Part shown: positions 1 through 32,269 of the stretch, piece by piece | Layout: each line of letters starts with the position of its first letter | How positions within the stretch are numbered: position 1 is the first letter of the stretch | IMG/VR virus record: IMGVR_UViG_3300029923_000073 | Coordinates: 1-32,544 of that record | Direction: 5' to 3' (one strand) | Length of the DNA: 32,544 nt | Source of the DNA: a virus | The notes under the pieces: generated by a model | What the model was told of the DNA's origin: nothing | The model's input: only the letters and a program-made list of their open reading frames with translations | Database searches by the model: none | Position numbers and translations under genes: made by a program

Positions 1-180
1 CACGCAGGTTAGCATCGCGCAGGTTAGCACCGCACAGGTCAGCACCACACAGGTTAGCATCGCACATGTCAGCACCACGCAGGTTAGCATCGCGCAGGTT
101 AGCACCACGCAGGTTAGCACCACGCAGGTTAGCATCGCACATGTCAGCACCACGCAGGTTAGCATCGCACAGGTTAGCTT
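1..180 (-). repeat. Tandem 15-bp repeats encoding the pentapeptide units
   Basis: Twelve nearly identical 15-bp units, in minus-strand sense GCTAACCTGCGTGGT and close variants. They vary at few positions (AAC/GAC, CTG/ATG, CGT/TGT/CGC, GGT/GAT), so the array is conserved at DNA level as well as protein level. This suggests recent expansion by slippage or recombination. The array continues past the left edge. Confidence 0.9.
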
Positions 181-262
181 TACTTCCTTCGTTACTATCT
201 ATTAACCATTTACCATGATTTTCTATAATTTCTTGTAATTTTTCTATTGATAATTTTTCCAT
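1..262 (-). CDS. Pentapeptide-repeat protein, 3' part cut by window edge
   Basis: The first 87 residues are visible; the gene runs off the left edge. After a 32-residue leader (starting [10 protein letters not shown]) the protein becomes an uninterrupted series of five-residue units of the form A(N/D)LxX, such as [10 protein letters not shown] and ANLRD, 11 complete plus one partial. This is the pentapeptide-repeat signature, which in known structures folds as a right-handed quadrilateral beta-helix. The start is fixed by AGGAG eight bases upstream. Some family members mimic DNA and bind gyrase, but most phage copies have no known role, and nothing here decides it. It is the most downstream gene seen in the leftward early operon. 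Family call sure, function unknown. Confidence 0.9.
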
Positions 263-8837: not shown

Positions 8838-9701
8838 TTAAACCTCCACAAATTCACCATTTTCTAATTTATAATAAATATTTTCTTTTAAAATTTCACC
8901 ATCAATTTGCGATGATTTAACACATAATGGGACTTGTTTATTTATTGAATTATCATATTCCCATTCTGCAAGTGTTATCCACGTTCCAGTTATTCCTTTA
9001 ATTTTATTATTAATACCGATTCCTGCCACTACTGAATATTTACCATCCACTGCTAATTGGGCATATTCTCCGCTACTTGCTAACTTGGCATAATCTCCGC
9101 TACTTGCTAACTTGGCAGAATCTCCGCTACTTGCTAATTGGGCATATTCTCCGATACTTGCTAACTTGGCAGAATATCCGCTACTTGCTAACTTGGCATA
9201 TTCTCCGCTACTTGCTAACTTGGCAGAATCTCCGCTACTTGCTAACTTGGCAGAATCTCCGCTACTTGCTAATTGGGCATATTCTCCGCTACTTGCTAAC
9301 TTGGCATATTCTCCGCTACTTGCTAACTTGGCAGAATCTCCGCTACTTGATAACTGGGATTTTTTTTTATTATTATCAGTGTTTTGTTCTTGCTTACAAC
9401 ATTCGCTAACGTATTCTATTGATGCTTTAATAAATCTAGGTAAATTTAATTTAATACCAATTTTTAATTTATTAGTAACTGATTTGTTATCTTCTTTTTT
9501 AACTTCTCCAACTGCTTCAACAATTGCAAATTCGCTGTTACATAAATCGTAATAATTCAAAACATCTAATGGATTTTCGCAAAAATGAAATCCGCTATTA
9601 CAAGGTATAAAATCACCTTTATGTTCATAAGTTTTACCTTCTTCAAATTGAAACCCTCTACACACTAAACCTTTATCAAATGCCTTAAATCCAACTACCA
9701 T
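8838..9701 (-). CDS. DUF7666-type protein with a 9-residue tandem repeat domain
   Basis: The N-terminal ~90 residues (KAFDKGLVCRGFQFEEGKTY ... CNSGFHFCENPLDVLNYYDL) match a phage domain I know as DUF7666, of unknown function. After a polar linker come 11 near-perfect copies of a nine-residue unit, SSG(D/E)(S/Y)A(K/Q)LA, plus a degenerate twelfth (VDGKYSVVA), and a C-terminal ~70-residue segment. Gly-containing repeats of this sort probably stack as a beta-helix or solenoid (inference). AAGGAGG lies about eight bases before the ATG. It sits in the early operon, so a virion role is unlikely; a DNA-mimic or scaffold role is only a guess. Confidence 0.75.
   Translation of the reverse strand: MVVGFKAFDKGLVCRGFQFEEGKTYEHKGDFIPCNSGFHFCENPLDVLNYYDLCNSEFAIVEAVGEVKKEDNKSVTNKLKIGIKLNLPRFIKASIEYVSECCKQEQNTDNNKKKSQLSSSGDSAKLASSGEYAKLASSGEYAQLASSGDSAKLASSGDSAKLASSGEYAKLASSGYSAKLASIGEYAQLASSGDSAKLASSGDYAKLASSGEYAQLAVDGKYSVVAGIGINNKIKGITGTWITLAEWEYDNSINKQVPLCVKSSQIDGEILKENIYYKLENGEFVEV
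9046..9354 (-). repeat. 27-bp tandem repeat array within the DUF7666 gene
   Basis: About eleven copies of a 27-bp unit, plus-strand form CTTGGCAGAATCTCCGCTA followed by CTTGCTAA, differing at few sites (AGAATC/ATATTC/ATAATC; ACTTGG/ATTGGG). The units encode SSGDSAKLA, SSGEYAKLA and similar. Near-identity at DNA level suggests recent copy-number change. Confidence 0.9.
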
Positions 9702-10347: not shown

Positions 10348-10761
10348 CTACTTTTTAAATATCATGTATAGTAATCCAATTCCTATGATATCGCGTTCAA
10401 ATGTTAACTTTTTAATTTTAAATTTTTCCGCTTGTTCTAGCTTCTCCCAATATTCGTTTGCAATCTTTAAGGATTTCTCCGCTTGTTCTATTGAGTTCCC
10501 TGCTATCATTAATTGTTGATTCAATTTCATTATTTGTTGATCTGATATTGTTATTTGATTGTTTGATTTCTGTAATAATTGATTTACTTGCTGCAATTGC
10601 TTCTCCTGCTCGTTGTTGTTGATCTCCAACTGATTTATATTGTTCTCTAACTGTGTTAGTTGTGATTCTGTCAACTGATACGTTGCTGTTGCTTCGCATA
10701 TCCCATGCAACGACAATACCAATAAGCAGCAAAATAACAAAGATGATATTAGTTTTTTCAT
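10348..10761 (-). CDS. Exported coiled-coil protein nested in the adjoining gene; candidate outer spanin subunit
   Basis: A 137-residue protein with a typical N-terminal export signal (MKKLISSLLFCCLLVLSLHG, followed by ICEA), then a Gln/Asn-rich region full of heptads (about 28-110) and a mildly hydrophobic end (IIGIGLLYMIF). The Cys in the signal region is not in a canonical lipobox, so lipoprotein processing is uncertain. It starts 37 bases inside the neighbouring gene in another frame and overlaps it for 344 bases. AAGGGG lies seven bases before its ATG. Embedded reading frames encoding two envelope proteins next to an endolysin are the hallmark of Rz/Rz1-type spanins. Unlike classical Rz1, this one is long. 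Confidence 0.65.
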   Translation of the reverse strand: MKKLISSLLFCCLLVLSLHGICEATATYQLTESQLTQLENNINQLEINNNEQEKQLQQVNQLLQKSNNQITISDQQIMKLNQQLMIAGNSIEQAEKSLKIANEYWEKLEQAEKFKIKKLTFERDIIGIGLLYMIFKK

Positions 10762-10798
10762 TCGCAGCCCCTTCTTTTATTTTTTTTATAATATCCAT
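10418..10798 (-). CDS. Membrane-anchored coiled-coil protein; candidate inner-membrane spanin (Rz-like)
   Basis: 126 residues with a single N-terminal transmembrane helix (about 18-34, IIFVILLLIGIVVAW) after a basic start, then a polar helical domain with repeated Ile/Leu heptads. This is the layout of an i-spanin: cytoplasmic tip, one helix and a periplasmic coiled coil. The start overlaps the endolysin stop as TAATG and is probably translated by coupling. It shares 344 bases with the exported protein in a different frame. Spanins join inner and outer membranes at the last step of lysis, so their presence implies a diderm host. The family match is by architecture, not by sequence. Confidence 0.65.
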   Translation of the reverse strand: MDIIKKIKEGAANEKTNIIFVILLLIGIVVAWDMRSNSNVSVDRITTNTVREQYKSVGDQQQRAGEAIAASKSIITEIKQSNNNIRSTNNEIESTINDSRELNRTSGEILKDCKRILGEARTSGKI

Positions 10799-11241: not shown

Positions 11242-11348
11242 TAATCATCACTCCCATTACTAAATTTACTATACTCTGGACAAACATTATTTAATTCGCT
11301 TGCTGAATACCAAACTGTTCCGCAATATTTACATATAAATTCTATCAT
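11241..11348 (-). CDS. Small CxxC protein, 35 aa
   Basis: Starts MIEFICKYCGTVW and ends FSNGSDD. C6-x2-C9 followed by one later Cys resembles a single zinc-ribbon knuckle. The ATG overlaps the upstream stop by four bases, the stop overlaps the endolysin start as TAATG, and AAGGCG lies about eight bases upstream. The tight packing is the main evidence that it is real. Confidence 0.55.
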   Translation of the reverse strand: MIEFICKYCGTVWYSASELNNVCPEYSKFSNGSDD

Positions 11349-11545
11349 AATTTTTCGCCTTGTTTGCTGTTATTTACGCTATCGTCCCTTTTATCAGCAA
11401 ATACATATAACCTTACCACTCCGTAAAATGCTGTCAGACGGTCAAGATCGTACTTGTGGTCGACGTTATTAAAAAAGCAATACAACCATAAACAAGCAAA
11501 TATTAAATCTGATATATGGACGTTTTTAATTAGTTCTTTAAACAT
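11345..11545 (-). CDS. Small membrane protein, 66 aa; holin candidate
   Basis: Starts MFKELIKNVH. It has one hydrophobic segment at about 11-27 (ISDLIFACLWLYCFFNN), a possible second weak one (AFYGVVRLYVFA), and a charged C-terminal tail. A strong AAAGGAGG lies eight bases upstream, and it is the first gene after an extended -10 promoter and two genes before the endolysin. Size and place fit a holin or holin-like protein, but no family match is seen and a single clear helix is not diagnostic. Confidence 0.6.
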   Translation of the reverse strand: MFKELIKNVHISDLIFACLWLYCFFNNVDHKYDLDRLTAFYGVVRLYVFADKRDDSVNNSKQGEKL

Positions 11546-14310: not shown

Positions 14311-14565
14311 TTATTTATCTTTAATTTTCAAATTAGTAGTAAGATCAATAAATTGTTGTTCTGTCAGTCGTATTTCCGCTTTAATTAATATCTTTTCTAA
14401 GTTTTTTGTATTTGATACTGTTTCATACTTAACATATATAGGCCTATGCATTTTAATAGTTGTATTTTTAACTCCGTACGAATATGATAATCCGCAAAAT
14501 ACGAATACAATTACAACTATTAAAATATAATTAACTATTATTTTAACTTTATTGTTAACTAACAT
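14311..14565 (-). CDS. Small membrane protein, 84 aa
   Basis: Starts MLVNNKVKII with one strong membrane helix at about 9-30 (IIVNYILIVVIVFVFCGLSY) and a charged, probably extracytoplasmic C-terminal domain (TIKMHRPIYVKYETV ... LTEQQFIDLTTNLKIKDK). The ribosome binding site is AGGGGG about six bases upstream. It follows the XhlA-like protein by nine bases, so it may be part of the lysis set, for example a holin accessory, but no family is recognised. Confidence 0.7.
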   Translation of the reverse strand: MLVNNKVKIIVNYILIVVIVFVFCGLSYSYGVKNTTIKMHRPIYVKYETVSNTKNLEKILIKAEIRLTEQQFIDLTTNLKIKDK

Positions 14566-14574
14566 TTTAACCCC

Positions 14575-14847
14575 CTAATGCTTCATCATGCTATAAATTG
14601 ATATTAATATAGCAACTGCCGATATACAGGTAGTTATTAGATACTGGTTTGAATCTTTGCGATCCTTTAACTCATCAACAAGTGAACTAACGGAACTAGC
14701 AAGCGTAGACAAAATAGTCTCTAATGTCCTAATGCGTGGCTCGTGTTGCAATTTTTCACTTTCCTCCGATCTTACTTTTATAGTTGCCACGTCAACTGAT
14801 AGGTCATCCAACTTACGCGATATTCTTTCTGCTAAAACATTATCCAT
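14575..14847 (-). CDS. XhlA-like/holin-associated coiled-coil membrane protein
   Basis: 90 residues: a long polar helix with heptads (MDNVLAERISRKLDDLSVDV ... LETILSTLASSVSSLVDELKDR) followed by a C-terminal membrane helix (about 70-87, LITTCISAVAILISIYSM) and a short MKH end. This is the layout of XhlA-type hemolysin/holin partners. AGGAGG lies about seven bases before the ATG. It lies downstream of the fibre genes, about 3 kb before the endolysin in transcription order. The match is by architecture, not sequence. Confidence 0.6.
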   Translation of the reverse strand: MDNVLAERISRKLDDLSVDVATIKVRSEESEKLQHEPRIRTLETILSTLASSVSSLVDELKDRKDSNQYLITTCISAVAILISIYSMMKH

Positions 14848-20127: not shown

Positions 20128-20153
20128 AGAGCGAATTAACGCTCTCTTTTTAT
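20127..20153 (+). terminator. Intrinsic terminator of the plus-strand cassette
   Basis: Perfect seven-bp stem GAGAGCG / CGCTCTC with loop AATTAA followed by TTTTTATTT. The T-run overlaps the stop codon of the converging ejection-protein gene. On the minus strand the hairpin is followed only by TAATTTTC, so leftward termination would be weaker. Confidence 0.93.
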
Positions 20154-23100
20154 TTGCCTAATGCTTTTAAAATTATAGCATTATGTTTTATTTGTAATTC
20201 ATCAATTTTAGATCTCTTAGTATCAGCATCTAGTTTTGTATCTGCTAAAACTAATTTAACCTTCTTGTAATTATCTTGTAGTTTTTCATTTGCCGTTCTA
20301 TATTTTCTTAATTCCCCTGCAACTACTCCTTTCTTACCAGTTTCATCGTGTTCCTGTTCTAATGTTTTCATTTTGTCATAAAATTGTTCTGTACTTTGTG
20401 ATAGTTTACCTGCATTTTTACTAAATAATGTTTTAATTACTGGTTGTTCTGTAAATTGTTTTGTAGGTAATTCATTTTTAGTACCAGATATTTCATTAAT
20501 CATTTTATCAGCACCTAATACCATAAACCCTGCAAGACCGCCACCTATATTGGAAATTGCATTATCAATTAACATTGGAGATTTATTTGTTTTATCTCCT
20601 ATTAATTTAGCTGTTTCGGATGTGTAAGAGTTAAATTGCTTGCTTGGTGTTGTATTTTTCAATGATTGCGGTACAATTTGTTTCTCTTTGAATACAGAGT
20701 AGCCACTAACCCATTCTCCAACCGTTAAGGCTGTAGTAGGAATTAAGTTAGGAACAAAACTACCACCAGTATTTTGCAAAAACTTTTGTATGCTTCTAGG
20801 ATTAACATTATACATGTGTCTAATTGCTTCTTCGGTAGTATTGGCAAACGTATTAAGTCCTAGTGGCTTTGGTATTCTTAATAATTTATCGCCAGTTCTA
20901 ATAATCCAAAAAGTATCTTTTTCATAATCAGGAAGTTCTTGAATATCTTTGTCGTTTAATCCTAGTAAAGTAATAACGACAGTTGGCAATACCAAGGCCA
21001 TAGTTATTTTTTTACTAACTCCTTTAGGGTCTTTGTAAAATTCGCGGGCCATTTTATCAGTACCTTGGATTGCAGCATTGAAGAACGGTATCATTTGATT
21101 AATGACTTGACCTTCTGATCCATGACGTGAAAAGTTAAGTGTAATTTCTTGCGCAGCTAATGCAGCTTCTTCGATTGATTTACCTGCTTTTTTTGCTTTC
21201 ATGTATTCGCCTAGTCTTGTGCCTGTCTCTGACATGTCGGTTAACCATTGTAATCCTCCTAGTAATGATCTAAACGCTTCTTTAGGTAATTTTGATGGTT
21301 CTATAATTGCTGTTTTTCCCATAGTTTTAATAGATTCAATTGGATTTTCAAATGACTTACCTTTCATAGCATCTTGTATTTTTGTATTCATAGCTTGTCT
21401 ATCGGAGTTTAGGTATGACGACATTATTGCACCGCTTGATTTGTACTCATTGTACATTTTTTCATTACCAAACATTGCAAATACACCTCGTACAGTATCA
21501 ACAACGGGAACAAATCCATGTTTTGAATATACATATGCTTCTAATGTATCTTTAATCGGATTCTTAATAAAGAACTCTGGACTTAAAATTGCCCCTGTAC
21601 GCAACCATTTTGCTTGATATGACATTAGCTTTACCATTGCATTACTACTTGATTCACTCACTGACATAATTGCTCTGTAGTATTCTGGTTCTGTGGCGTA
21701 TGCCTGTTTTTTACCACCTGTCATTACTGTAAATATGCTATTTTTAGCATCTGCATCGCCTGGTACTTTTTCAACAAAACGTCCTGCTCCGTTAACGTCT
21801 GATAATTTAACAAACGCTTGGGCTACCCTATTCCTTTCAATAACATTTAACGTCGAATATGTGTCGATTATAGCTGATTCAAGGGGACTAATAACCGATC
21901 TAGCTGATCCGTATTCAGTTAGCTTTTGTTGCTTATCTGAAATGTTACCAAATCCTTCTCCTTTTCCCTTGCCTTTTACTTTTGACACTGTGTCCTCGAA
22001 ATCTCTAGACATATGTGCATAGTTTTGATTATTTTTTTTCATTTCTGCATATTCTGTTGCACTGGTTAATCCTTCTGCAACTCTCATTCTCATAATGTTA
22101 TCATTGTAATTATAAAAGTCTTGTGCAATATCTTCAAATTCCTTAGGTGAATCTTTTAAAACAATTGCAGCATCTTCCTTACTCATTGAACCTACATATT
22201 TTTCTTTAGTTTTTTGTATTTCTGTTTGGCGTTTTGCAACTAAATAAGTGTCAAATGCTTCATTCCAATTTTTAAAGTTTCCTTCTTTTAGGAATGTTTG
22301 ATATTTTTTGTCTGTTACTTCACTACTGATTCTATCTATAATTGATCTAAAAGTTACATCGTGAACCAATGCACCACCAAAATGAACGTTTAACAATTCA
22401 ATAGCCATTACAGGATTTAATTCATTTACTATAATATCAGCTTTAGCCATTGCGGAATTGTTTGCCAATCTTGCTAATTTTTCTGGATTATCTTTTGTTC
22501 CTAATTTAGTACCAGTTGCTTTTTCAAACGCTTTTACAAATCTAGTTAATCCAAACTTATCATCTACCATTTTTTCGTAAAACTTAACTCCGACTTCCTC
22601 TGCACGTTTTAAAATTGTATTTTCGTGTTCATAGCCAAATGATAATCCACTACGAGCCCTTGCAATAGATGGTTGTGCATACCATGCTCGAATCTTATTA
22701 CCAATGTTTTCTACCGACTTAAATAGTTTTTTATCAGCGGATAACTTAGCAACAAATTCTGGGCCATAACTAGGGAAATTATTTAATGCTTCTTGCTTAT
22801 TGATTAGGTATTGCCTAGTAAACTCTGCAACTCCTTCTGCTCTGCGCTGTTCTGGTGTATATGAGTCGTATTCTTTTGCTCCTGACCACATTTTATCAGC
22901 GGTTCCTATTAATTCAGCATCGTGACCAGTGATTTTTAGTTTTGAATCTACATGATGACCTATTTCGTGGGACATTGTGTCAAAGTCACCATAGTTTCTT
23001 GTTCTTGCAACTCCTGCTTCTGTTTTATATAATCCCTCATAGGTTTTAACGCCTAATCTTCCTGTTCTTGCAGGAACTAAAGCATTAATGTCTTTCATTA

Positions 23101-25135
23101 TTTCAGTTCTTGTTACTGGTTTTTCATAAGTTGTTTCTGCAGGAATTACAGTTGATTTTCCAAGTGATCCTTGTTCTCCTTCTTTTAACTTTGCAATAAT
23201 AGCAGTGGTTTCAGTTGGATATTTTTCAACTAATGCAGGATATTCTTTTAACACTTCTTGTGGCACAAGTTTTTCATCTTTAATAGCTTGTTCTATAATT
23301 TGTTCATGTGTTTTTAATTGTTCTGTTGTTAATTCTGCTACTGGTTTTTCTTTGGTAATATTATCATATTGATCTTTTGTCATTTCCCATGGTTGCTTAG
23401 TTGCTAAGTCTGTTAAATCTTTAGTAGCAGATTCTGCAGAAATCTTATCTTGTTCAAGTTGATACTTTTCTCTTGCTGTTAATTCTGTTTTTTGTACATC
23501 TGAAACAACTTTACTTTCTGGTGATCTTTTAATACTTTCCATAATTTTATTTACATAATTTTGCGTTTCTTTATATGGAGGAATGCCATTGTATTTTAAT
23601 ACTGCATTAGGTCCTGCATTATAAGCTGCCAATGCCTTTTCTGTATCTCCACCAAATGTTTCTAATTGCTCTTTTAAATATTTGGCTCCACCCATAACGT
23701 TACCGCGAACATCGTGAGGATTAACACCTAATCCCTCTGCAGTATCTGGCATTAATTGCATTAAACCAATTGCGCCAGTTGGAGAAACCGCATCTGATTT
23801 AAAACTGCTTTCTTGTTTCATTACTGCTGCGATTAGTTCTGGTGATACTCCATATTTTTGAGATGCTTCTAAAATTATATCTTTATAACTACTAGCTTCT
23901 GTCAATGCAGGGTGTTCATATGCTGTTGCTTTAGGTAACTCACCAGTAAAATCAGCTAAATGTAAATGTAATCCACTTCCTGTGTCATGATATAGCACTT
24001 CTCCCCATCCTGCATCAATAGCCTTTTGTTTAATCAATGCCTGTTGTTCTGGTGTTATAATCCCAACACCTAAGTCTATTGCCCTGCCGTCTAAATGATG
24101 TGACGTAGGAGATCCTCCTGATTCTGCATTGACTTCTGGTGTTCTTTTGCCAGAGGTAATAACTGGTTCTATTCCAAATTCGCTTCTTAATACCTCTCCA
24201 AACGTATTGGCAGCTACTTTTGTATTATTTTCAACCCCTACATAATCAGATGTTTCAGGACTTATTTCTAATTGTTTTGCTTGCTGTGTAGTTGTTTCTC
24301 TCTTTACAGGAGTTACTTGCTGTTCTGATTGTTTGTTTGCTCTATACGACGCTAACTCATCTTGCAACGTTACACCTTGTTCATTTACATGCGGAACAGT
24401 CTCAATAATTGGTGTACCTTCTGGTGTAACACCGGCTTGTCGCGATTCTCTTATTTTAGTTATACCTTCAATTGCACCTTTGCCCATTAATAGCGGTGGA
24501 ATTATTGACATTAATCCGCTACCTGTTGTGGATATTGGTCTATTATAAAACTGTTGTCGTAAATCTGGTTGATTATACCAATCAATTGCACCTCCGACAG
24601 TGAAATCGCGTATTACTTTTTGAACACCATTCATTTTTCCATCTGCAATTTGTTTTTGGGCATTGACTTCCTCTTGTGAAAAACCTTCTTTTGGAGTTGC
24701 ATTTCCATATTCATCAACATTAGCCATTGTTCTTAATTTTGCTTGCTCTACATTTCCTTCTTGATATATGTTTTTAATATCAGTTGCCATAAACGGTAAT
24801 GATGCTATACCTGCTGTCTTACTAACCAAAGATAATGGCAATGCCACTGGCTTAACTGTTTGATCCATAAAGTCAGATGTTGCCTTACCTGCATATTCTA
24901 CATTTGCTTTTTGTTGTTCTGGTGTTGTTTGCGCAGAAGTACCTGGACCACCATATAATTGATCTTGTGCTGTTTGCACTTCTTTAGCACCTTGAATTGC
25001 ACCAATACCCCAGTTTTTAACCGTATCCCTAACATCTTCAAATGCTCTAGTAAAAAGACCTTTTTCTTCTGGTGGAGGTGTAGGTTTTGGTCTATTTGCT
25101 CTATATTCCGCTAAATCATCTGATATGTTACCCAC
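20150..25135 (-). CDS. Giant ejection/polyvalent internal virion protein with M15-like, transglycosylase and HExxH domains
   Basis: 1661 residues, GTG start (AAGGAAG eight bases upstream). Domains: about 300-395, an M15-like peptidase fold (SHHLDGRAIDLG at 345-356 and LHLHLAD near 390), fitting a peptidase that cuts peptidoglycan stems; about 420-535, an SLT lytic transglycosylase (KQESSF with Glu442, GAIGLMQLMP, ALAAYNAGP); about 685-780, a zinc-peptidase-like motif HEIGH (723-727) with EGVAEF downstream; about 1180 on, an LPD38-like region (LSPEFFIKNPIKD). LAEYRANRP (8-16) is echoed by LASYRANKQ (261-269). This is the T7 gp16 equivalent: packed in the head, ejected first, and opening a path through the cell wall. 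Confidence 0.92.
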   Translation of the reverse strand: MGNISDDLAEYRANRPKPTPPPEEKGLFTRAFEDVRDTVKNWGIGAIQGAKEVQTAQDQLYGGPGTSAQTTPEQQKANVEYAGKATSDFMDQTVKPVALPLSLVSKTAGIASLPFMATDIKNIYQEGNVEQAKLRTMANVDEYGNATPKEGFSQEEVNAQKQIADGKMNGVQKVIRDFTVGGAIDWYNQPDLRQQFYNRPISTTGSGLMSIIPPLLMGKGAIEGITKIRESRQAGVTPEGTPIIETVPHVNEQGVTLQDELASYRANKQSEQQVTPVKRETTTQQAKQLEISPETSDYVGVENNTKVAANTFGEVLRSEFGIEPVITSGKRTPEVNAESGGSPTSHHLDGRAIDLGVGIITPEQQALIKQKAIDAGWGEVLYHDTGSGLHLHLADFTGELPKATAYEHPALTEASSYKDIILEASQKYGVSPELIAAVMKQESSFKSDAVSPTGAIGLMQLMPDTAEGLGVNPHDVRGNVMGGAKYLKEQLETFGGDTEKALAAYNAGPNAVLKYNGIPPYKETQNYVNKIMESIKRSPESKVVSDVQKTELTAREKYQLEQDKISAESATKDLTDLATKQPWEMTKDQYDNITKEKPVAELTTEQLKTHEQIIEQAIKDEKLVPQEVLKEYPALVEKYPTETTAIIAKLKEGEQGSLGKSTVIPAETTYEKPVTRTEIMKDINALVPARTGRLGVKTYEGLYKTEAGVARTRNYGDFDTMSHEIGHHVDSKLKITGHDAELIGTADKMWSGAKEYDSYTPEQRRAEGVAEFTRQYLINKQEALNNFPSYGPEFVAKLSADKKLFKSVENIGNKIRAWYAQPSIARARSGLSFGYEHENTILKRAEEVGVKFYEKMVDDKFGLTRFVKAFEKATGTKLGTKDNPEKLARLANNSAMAKADIIVNELNPVMAIELLNVHFGGALVHDVTFRSIIDRISSEVTDKKYQTFLKEGNFKNWNEAFDTYLVAKRQTEIQKTKEKYVGSMSKEDAAIVLKDSPKEFEDIAQDFYNYNDNIMRMRVAEGLTSATEYAEMKKNNQNYAHMSRDFEDTVSKVKGKGKGEGFGNISDKQQKLTEYGSARSVISPLESAIIDTYSTLNVIERNRVAQAFVKLSDVNGAGRFVEKVPGDADAKNSIFTVMTGGKKQAYATEPEYYRAIMSVSESSSNAMVKLMSYQAKWLRTGAILSPEFFIKNPIKDTLEAYVYSKHGFVPVVDTVRGVFAMFGNEKMYNEYKSSGAIMSSYLNSDRQAMNTKIQDAMKGKSFENPIESIKTMGKTAIIEPSKLPKEAFRSLLGGLQWLTDMSETGTRLGEYMKAKKAGKSIEEAALAAQEITLNFSRHGSEGQVINQMIPFFNAAIQGTDKMAREFYKDPKGVSKKITMALVLPTVVITLLGLNDKDIQELPDYEKDTFWIIRTGDKLLRIPKPLGLNTFANTTEEAIRHMYNVNPRSIQKFLQNTGGSFVPNLIPTTALTVGEWVSGYSVFKEKQIVPQSLKNTTPSKQFNSYTSETAKLIGDKTNKSPMLIDNAISNIGGGLAGFMVLGADKMINEISGTKNELPTKQFTEQPVIKTLFSKNAGKLSQSTEQFYDKMKTLEQEHDETGKKGVVAGELRKYRTANEKLQDNYKKVKLVLADTKLDADTKRSKIDELQIKHNAIILKALGK

Positions 25136-31285: not shown

Positions 31286-32269
31286 TTATACCACCTTTGT
31301 TTCAGCATTGATAATTTGGTCTACACGTCTTACTGGAATACCATCAAATGCTACTACTTTTCTGCCAGCTATTTCATCCATTGTTAATTGATAGTTTGTT
31401 TTGTTAACAATCTGTCTACGTAAGAAAGAACGAACCTTTTGGTTTACATAGAATACAGGTTTACCCATTGCTTGATTAGGAAGTAATTCAATTGCTTGTG
31501 TCATAAGGTCAATCAAGTCAGCACCAGCACTAGCGTTTTTAGTTAATGCAGCAGTATCGATATTAGCAATACGAACCACATATCTCCAATCCCTTACGGT
31601 AAAACCACAATCCCACTTATAATGAGTGCGGTAACCTTGATATTTATTGCCGTTTACATCAAATAATGTTTGTTCACCAAGGTCTTGATGTTGAAAACCA
31701 GCCTTAGAACCTTTAGGGAAAATACCATGTGCAGTAAGGTCGCCCCAACATACTAAATAAATAGATGTTAGTCCAGTAGAGCCACCACCATCTAGGATAT
31801 TAGCCCCACTCGGTGCAGATAACGACGAGAATCTAGGTTGCAATCCTACGAATCTTTCAGGATTAGCACTAGTATCACCATAAATTAATGATTGTCCCAT
31901 GGTTTGATTCATGGATTCTAAATATGCTCTATCTTCGCCAAGTCTAAACTCGCTAGCATTGCCGTTTAAGTCAGCTAAAACTTTATCAACTTCCGCATAA
32001 GCTTCAAGCATTCCGCAAGTGTCAGTAATTTGAGTTGTTTCAGATTTACTATTAGGAACACCATAATTTAATAGTCTCCATGCTACAGTTGGTAAACCTG
32101 CTCTAATGGTTGTTTTATGACCAGTAGGTAGATTGCCCTCAATCCATAACATATCATCTAAAATTTCATTAGTTTGAGTTAATACCTCAACAATTTTATC
32201 TACCTTTCCATTTGCATCTAGGCGTTTTGCCATATCTTGCAGTGTTACTGCTGTTCCAATAGTCGCCAT
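31286..32269 (-). CDS. Major capsid protein (BPP-1/Bbp17-type, HK97 fold)
   Basis: 327 residues: ATIGTAVTLQDMAKRLDANG, NEILDDMLWIEGNLPTGHKT, GVPNSKSETTQITDTCGMLE, FRLGEDRAYLESMNQTMGQS, LIYGD, then WDCGFTVRDWRYVVRIAN and a C-terminal FDGIPVRRVD. These are features of the podovirus major capsid group that occurs together with Bbp16-like cement proteins. GGAGG lies seven bases before the ATG. No cleaved prohead part is evident at the N-terminus. Confidence 0.92.
   Translation of the reverse strand: MATIGTAVTLQDMAKRLDANGKVDKIVEVLTQTNEILDDMLWIEGNLPTGHKTTIRAGLPTVAWRLLNYGVPNSKSETTQITDTCGMLEAYAEVDKVLADLNGNASEFRLGEDRAYLESMNQTMGQSLIYGDTSANPERFVGLQPRFSSLSAPSGANILDGGGSTGLTSIYLVCWGDLTAHGIFPKGSKAGFQHQDLGEQTLFDVNGNKYQGYRTHYKWDCGFTVRDWRYVVRIANIDTAALTKNASAGADLIDLMTQAIELLPNQAMGKPVFYVNQKVRSFLRRQIVNKTNYQLTMDEIAGRKVVAFDGIPVRRVDQIINAETKVV

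Follow-up and report, generated by a model that had tools for sequence, protein, structure and literature searches.

Two-component spanins such as lambda Rz/Rz1 combine a type II inner-membrane protein (i-spanin) with an exported partner (o-spanin), a lipobox-bearing lipoprotein of the outer membrane. Both have helical periplasmic domains, and their genes, which follow the endolysin gene, lie side by side, overlap or are embedded one in the other in different frames (Kongari et al. 2018, PMC6139136). Unimolecular spanins (u-spanins) such as T1 gp11 carry an N-terminal lipobox and a C-terminal transmembrane domain (TMD), and their periplasmic domain is rich in β-structure. In the survey by Kongari et al. 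(PMC6139136), o- and u-spanins were defined by the lipobox and other anchors were not considered; the 91 phages without spanins include cyanobacterial, Thermus and Bordetella BPP-1-type phages. A survey from 2025 likewise removed candidates without a lipobox and reported no spanins in cyanobacterial phages, for which spanin surveys have offered fragile membranes as a reason. Lipobox filters would miss lipobox-free systems like the gene pair described here.

The stretch of DNA analyzed (the window) spans 32,544 bases of an IMG/VR virus record, has a GC content of 33% and is probably incomplete. Directly 3′ of its glucosaminidase endolysin gene lie two long frames, for which a first-pass annotation had reported an overlap of 344 bases; this overlap was confirmed, and the dual coding is beyond chance (Table 1). 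The ATG of the outer, i-spanin-like (i-like) gene overlaps the endolysin stop codon (TAATG), and the pair does follow the endolysin. The inner, o-spanin-like (o-like) ATG is preceded at about 6 to 8 nt by AAGG(GG), in agreement with the well-placed AAGGGG that had been noted inside the first frame. Among open reading frames of at least 90 aa, this is the sole same-strand overlap of at least 150 nt in the window; an antisense frame at 9077-9552, an artefact of a repeat gene, was set aside in the count. The layout had been called embedded. A nested spanin-like pair is indeed present, but the o-like frame extends 70 nt beyond the i-like frame, and "overlapped" is therefore the usual term.

Table 1. 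Features of the gene pair and the wider lysis region in the window
Feature	Position	Strand	Remarks
i-spanin-like protein, 126 aa	10418..10798	-	Cytoplasmic N-tail, TMD at about residues 18-32, 94-aa periplasmic helical domain (predicted)
o-spanin-like protein, 137 aa	10348..10761	-	Signal peptide residues 1 to about 27, long helix 32-136, hydrophobic C-terminus 125-135, no lipobox
Region coding in two frames, 344 nt	10418..10761	-	Codon redraws and third-position comparison
Ribosome-binding site of inner gene, AGAAGGGG, within outer frame	10762..10780	-	
Endolysin, glucosaminidase PF01832	10798..11241	-	Stop overlaps start of i-like gene
Possible holin (weak), 66 aa, possible single TMD	11345..11545	-	Upstream of endolysin; no family match
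84-aa N-anchored protein, short relative of phrog_10797	14311..14565	-	Adjoins XhlA-like gene
XhlA-like membrane protein	14575..14847	-	Wider lysis region; PF10779 E=2.8e-4, below gathering score

The pair is known from three sequences only. Scans of viral contigs placed it on two other IMG/VR contigs, L002 and L004, in both cases in the same phase as in the window. L002 (10.5 kb) carries baseplate genes and was thus assigned to a myophage; its i-like and o-like proteins are 54% and 60% identical to those of the window, and the pair stands directly after the endolysin, with a PF05105 holin and an amidase preceding it. L004 (43 kb) has the gene set of an HK97-type siphophage. It encodes a PF05105 holin and an endolysin with 62% identity to that of the window, and the pair lies about 1.4 kb after this endolysin. 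The o-like protein of L004 is 31% identical to that of the window, and the i-like protein is an open frame in the same phase. The virion genes of the window itself are those of an epsilon15/BPP-1-type podovirus, with a tail protein 36% identical to those of epsilon15-like phages. Since the pair recurs across three virion types with two unrelated endolysins, its distribution indicates an exchangeable lysis module.

No match to the pair was obtained in 50,697 phage records and none to the o-like protein in 72,556 plasmid records, and scans of genome contigs revealed no relative of the pair. A scan for the C-terminal motif of the o-like protein returned 40 loci, of which only those in L002 and L004 were real; an HMM search of 80 loci with relatives of the endolysin gave no pair beyond L004 itself. 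tRNA genes were found neither on the window nor on the fetched L002 and L004 contigs. None of ATG, GTG and TTG is available as a start codon for the i-like frame of L004; the one good start there is an ATT that overlaps the TTG of the o-like frame (ATTG, L004:7856-7859), and one ribosome-binding site serves both. The TMD of the L004 i-like protein (L004:7868-7930) holds FLLGC followed by AAGYYLSGGG and could also be taken for a lipoprotein signal.

To assess dual coding, synonymous codons were redrawn with each contig's own usage while one protein was kept fixed, and stop codons were counted in the other frame. With either protein of the window fixed, the other frame contained about 11 stops on average and was open in 0 of 20,000 draws. 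For L002, 8 to 9 stops were counted on average, again with no open frame in 20,000 draws, while in the GC-rich L004 the other frame was open in 0.2 to 0.3% of draws. Substitutions pointed in the same direction. Between the window and L002, third positions of the i-frame changed least (23 of 106, compared to 16 of 22 in the single-coding tail; Fisher p=8e-6), and those of the o-frame were also slowed (37 of 105 versus the same 16 of 22; p=0.002); i-frame third positions are o-frame second positions, and o-frame third positions are i-frame first positions. Not a single aligned column was out of phase in the three pairwise comparisons. By these tests, both frames are coding and under selection.

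The first-pass annotation had described one product as an N-terminal membrane anchor with a helical body and the other as an export signal with a coiled coil, a description that hydropathy, the signal sequences and an AlphaFold model of the o-like protein support. The i-like proteins of the three phages consist of a short N-tail, one strong TMD by hydropathy and 86 to 99 periplasmic residues. Judged from these features, the i-like protein would be a type II membrane protein with its N-terminus inside and a predicted helical periplasmic domain, as in an i-spanin. The L004 member matches phrog_214, an Rz-like spanin family (E=5.9e-5), whereas for the window and L002, hits to such families were at noise level or close to it. 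No Pfam spanin family matched the pair, and a PDB profile search with the i-like family returned chance coiled-coil matches only.

Cleavable-looking export signals are present in all three o-like proteins. Read by eye, an AxA-type cleavage site closes the signal of the window protein (ATA) and of its L002 counterpart (AQA), and L004 shows a near equivalent. AlphaFold, working from three sequences only, modeled the window protein as a single helix over residues 32-136 (pLDDT of about 95). Two cysteines of the signal region, C12 and C22, are conserved, and near the signal end only Cys22 qualifies as a candidate for lipidation. The sequences at this position (HGIC, PITC and ATTC) fail both strict and relaxed lipobox motifs, which bears out the earlier statement that a canonical lipobox is lacking. 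The lipobox by which an o-spanin is recognized as an outer-membrane lipoprotein is thus absent.

Lipidation of the o-like protein at an unorthodox site is nevertheless possible. The pair would then be a conventional overlapped spanin pair, in a host tolerant of such a lipobox, where Cys22 would be acylated and Lol would carry the protein to the outer membrane; the hydrophobic C-terminus would serve as an extra membrane anchor or as part of the coiled coil. The cysteine lies close to the signal end and is kept in all three o-like proteins though the i-frame residues there differ, and o-spanins with deviant lipoboxes such as AWAC and LNGC exist (PMC6139136). However, positions -3 to -1 read HGI, PIT and ATT, with Gly, Ala or Ser at -1 in none of the three, and in the window and L002 the AxA-type sites offer alternative signal peptidase I cleavage after the cysteine. 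We regard this explanation as unlikely. A separate lipoprotein was sought with the loose version of an all-frame lipoprotein-signal scan, which replaced a tighter scan that had missed several control loci. No credible coding-strand frame was found near the lysis cassettes of the window, L002, L004 and four further phages with related endolysins (L057-L060); the same scan recovered the lipoprotein in 10 of 10 control loci, which were picked for carrying one and thus test sensitivity only.

The o-like proteins share a further feature that the first reading of the sequence had missed. Each ends in an 11-residue, purely hydrophobic segment with a terminal F: IIGIGLLYMIF-KK in the window, LLIVGIIGMVF-NK in L002 and LAIILLAALIF-N in L004. 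A length of 11 residues would correspond to about one membrane leaflet. This conserved segment gives the earlier suggestion of a new anchoring mode a concrete candidate, and the reported lack of Lol in Negativicutes provides its rationale. A function of the C-terminus as a β-strand signal was considered and dropped, as the segment is uniformly hydrophobic and was modeled as helix.

Compared with two-component spanins, the pair has in common the type II protein with an exported partner, the helical periplasmic domains and the nesting in different frames, with the same phase in three phages and a place in the lysis cassette. It differs in the missing lipobox, in the 137-aa partner with a hydrophobic tail and in the lack of a significant Pfam spanin match. 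Because the defining lipobox is absent, we file the pair as a spanin variant and not as a member of the two-component class; its most likely function, as far as the protein features indicate, is that of a two-component spanin. More specifically, we favor with moderate confidence a dual-coded lysis module that works in this manner without a lipoprotein. The 126-aa protein would be anchored in the inner membrane and expose its helical domain to the periplasm, while the 137-aa protein would be exported by Sec, lose its signal and pack its long helix against this presumed partner. Its hydrophobic C-terminus would insert in a membrane, most likely in the inner leaflet of the outer membrane, and so replace the acyl chains of Rz1. 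Once the wall had been cut by the endolysin, a collapse of the complex could pull one membrane onto the other, which would disrupt the outer membrane. If the outer membrane does hold the C-terminus, the two proteins would lie parallel, N to C from the inner to the outer membrane, unlike the C-to-C contact of Rz/Rz1. The tail could instead lie in the inner membrane, and the complex would then not bridge the periplasm.

The hydrophobic segments at both ends of the 137-aa protein are also a trait of T1 gp11, and a helix of 105 residues is long enough for much of the periplasm. The protein might accordingly span the envelope alone, with its N-terminus at one membrane and its tail reaching into the other; the 126-aa protein might then be a regulator. 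Known u-spanins, though, need a lipobox and have β-rich periplasmic domains, whereas the 137-aa protein is all helix, has no lipobox, ends in a segment of only 11 aa and, in each of the three phages, shares a nested locus with an i-spanin-like partner. An envelope-spanning single protein thus appears very unlikely. A different role would be the regulation of holin or wall degradation by two inner-membrane proteins, in the manner of antiholins or XhlA. The coiled coil followed by a C-terminal hydrophobic segment resembles XhlA-type proteins, and the L004 o-like protein reaches PF10779 with E=1.3e-3, below the cut-off. Yet XhlA proteins are not known to have an export signal, while the o-like proteins do have one; moreover, a gene nested with that of a type II helical protein immediately behind the endolysin is the arrangement of spanins, and the virion genes speak for a diderm host, so that we consider such a regulator rather improbable.

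The first-pass annotation had taken the replication and recombination genes as Firmicutes-like and had predicted a diderm Firmicute host; both claims hold in part, and its narrower choice of Negativicutes is a possibility. RecT shares about 51% identity with its counterpart in Paenibacillus phage PG1, the phage relatives of the endolysin are Firmicute phages, and the PF05105 holins of L002 and L004 are of Firmicute type. The primase-helicase, in contrast, is not Firmicute-like (best named match, Fusobacterium phage phiFN37, 30%), and the virion genes are those of Proteobacteria phages, with a capsid (31286-32269, minus strand) 62% identical to that of Bordetella phage BPP-1. L059, a prophage record whose IMG number suggests an isolate genome, shares with the window an endolysin (43%) and the large virion protein, the latter at 33% over 1,048 aa; the best match of its recombinase is an Alicyclobacillus phage, and most others are Firmicute. 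A diderm Firmicute host would reconcile the Firmicute-type holins, endolysin and RecT with a virion of Proteobacteria-phage type, and the gene content suggests such a host. Other diderms are possible, Fusobacteria among them because of the phiFN37 match. BPP-1 is itself on the published list of phages without a recognizable spanin (PMC6139136).

Negativicutes are reported to lack LolA/LolB homologues, and Veillonella parvula has no known outer-membrane lipoproteins; diderm Terrabacteria except Halanaerobia are said to lack both Lol and outer-membrane lipoproteins (PMC5007114, PMC10665443, PMC11784454). A lipid-free partner would therefore fit Negativicutes, and the pair constitutes a concrete, testable candidate for lysis without lipoproteins. 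Tentatively, and with rather more doubt than conviction, we propose a lipid-free spanin class in diderms without Lol (Negativicutes and possibly other diderm Terrabacteria), in which a C-terminal hydrophobic peptide, placed in one leaflet like a fusion peptide, replaces the acyl chains. If true, this class would explain why cyanobacterial and Thermus phages appear spanin-less in lipobox-based surveys; the link between the literature on spanin-less phages and that on missing Lol is our own hypothesis.

Four cassettes with related endolysins lack the nested pair and encode one type II membrane protein of 175 to 209 aa (L057:4816-5445, L058:4665-5198, L059:4787-5314 and L060:4425-4997, all plus strand; phrog_10797 in L057-L059). 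In L058-L060, this protein has a strand-like aromatic C-terminus (YVRTIVEW, YEIGAAYMIRW and HYGAGFGIRFK) and may be a unimolecular spanin that reaches from the inner to the outer membrane with an OMP-like end. AlphaFold models of phrog_10797 proteins from related cassettes were too poor to judge (pLDDT of 42). In related phages the phrog_10797 protein comes after the endolysin, and the 84-aa protein of the window keeps only the membrane-anchored part of this family. Elsewhere in the window, a 1,661-aa virion protein (20150-25135, minus strand) contains, by eye, lytic transglycosylase-like and M15-peptidase-like stretches, and prophage L059 encodes a relative. Pentapeptide-repeat proteins are encoded at the window end (2-262, minus strand) and in the L004 phage (L009:18901-19404, minus strand). 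A DUF7666 protein of the window (8838-9701, minus strand) carries a run of near-identical 9-residue repeats (LASSGEYAK) and also matches the YdhT model with E=7.7e-21, below the cut-off.
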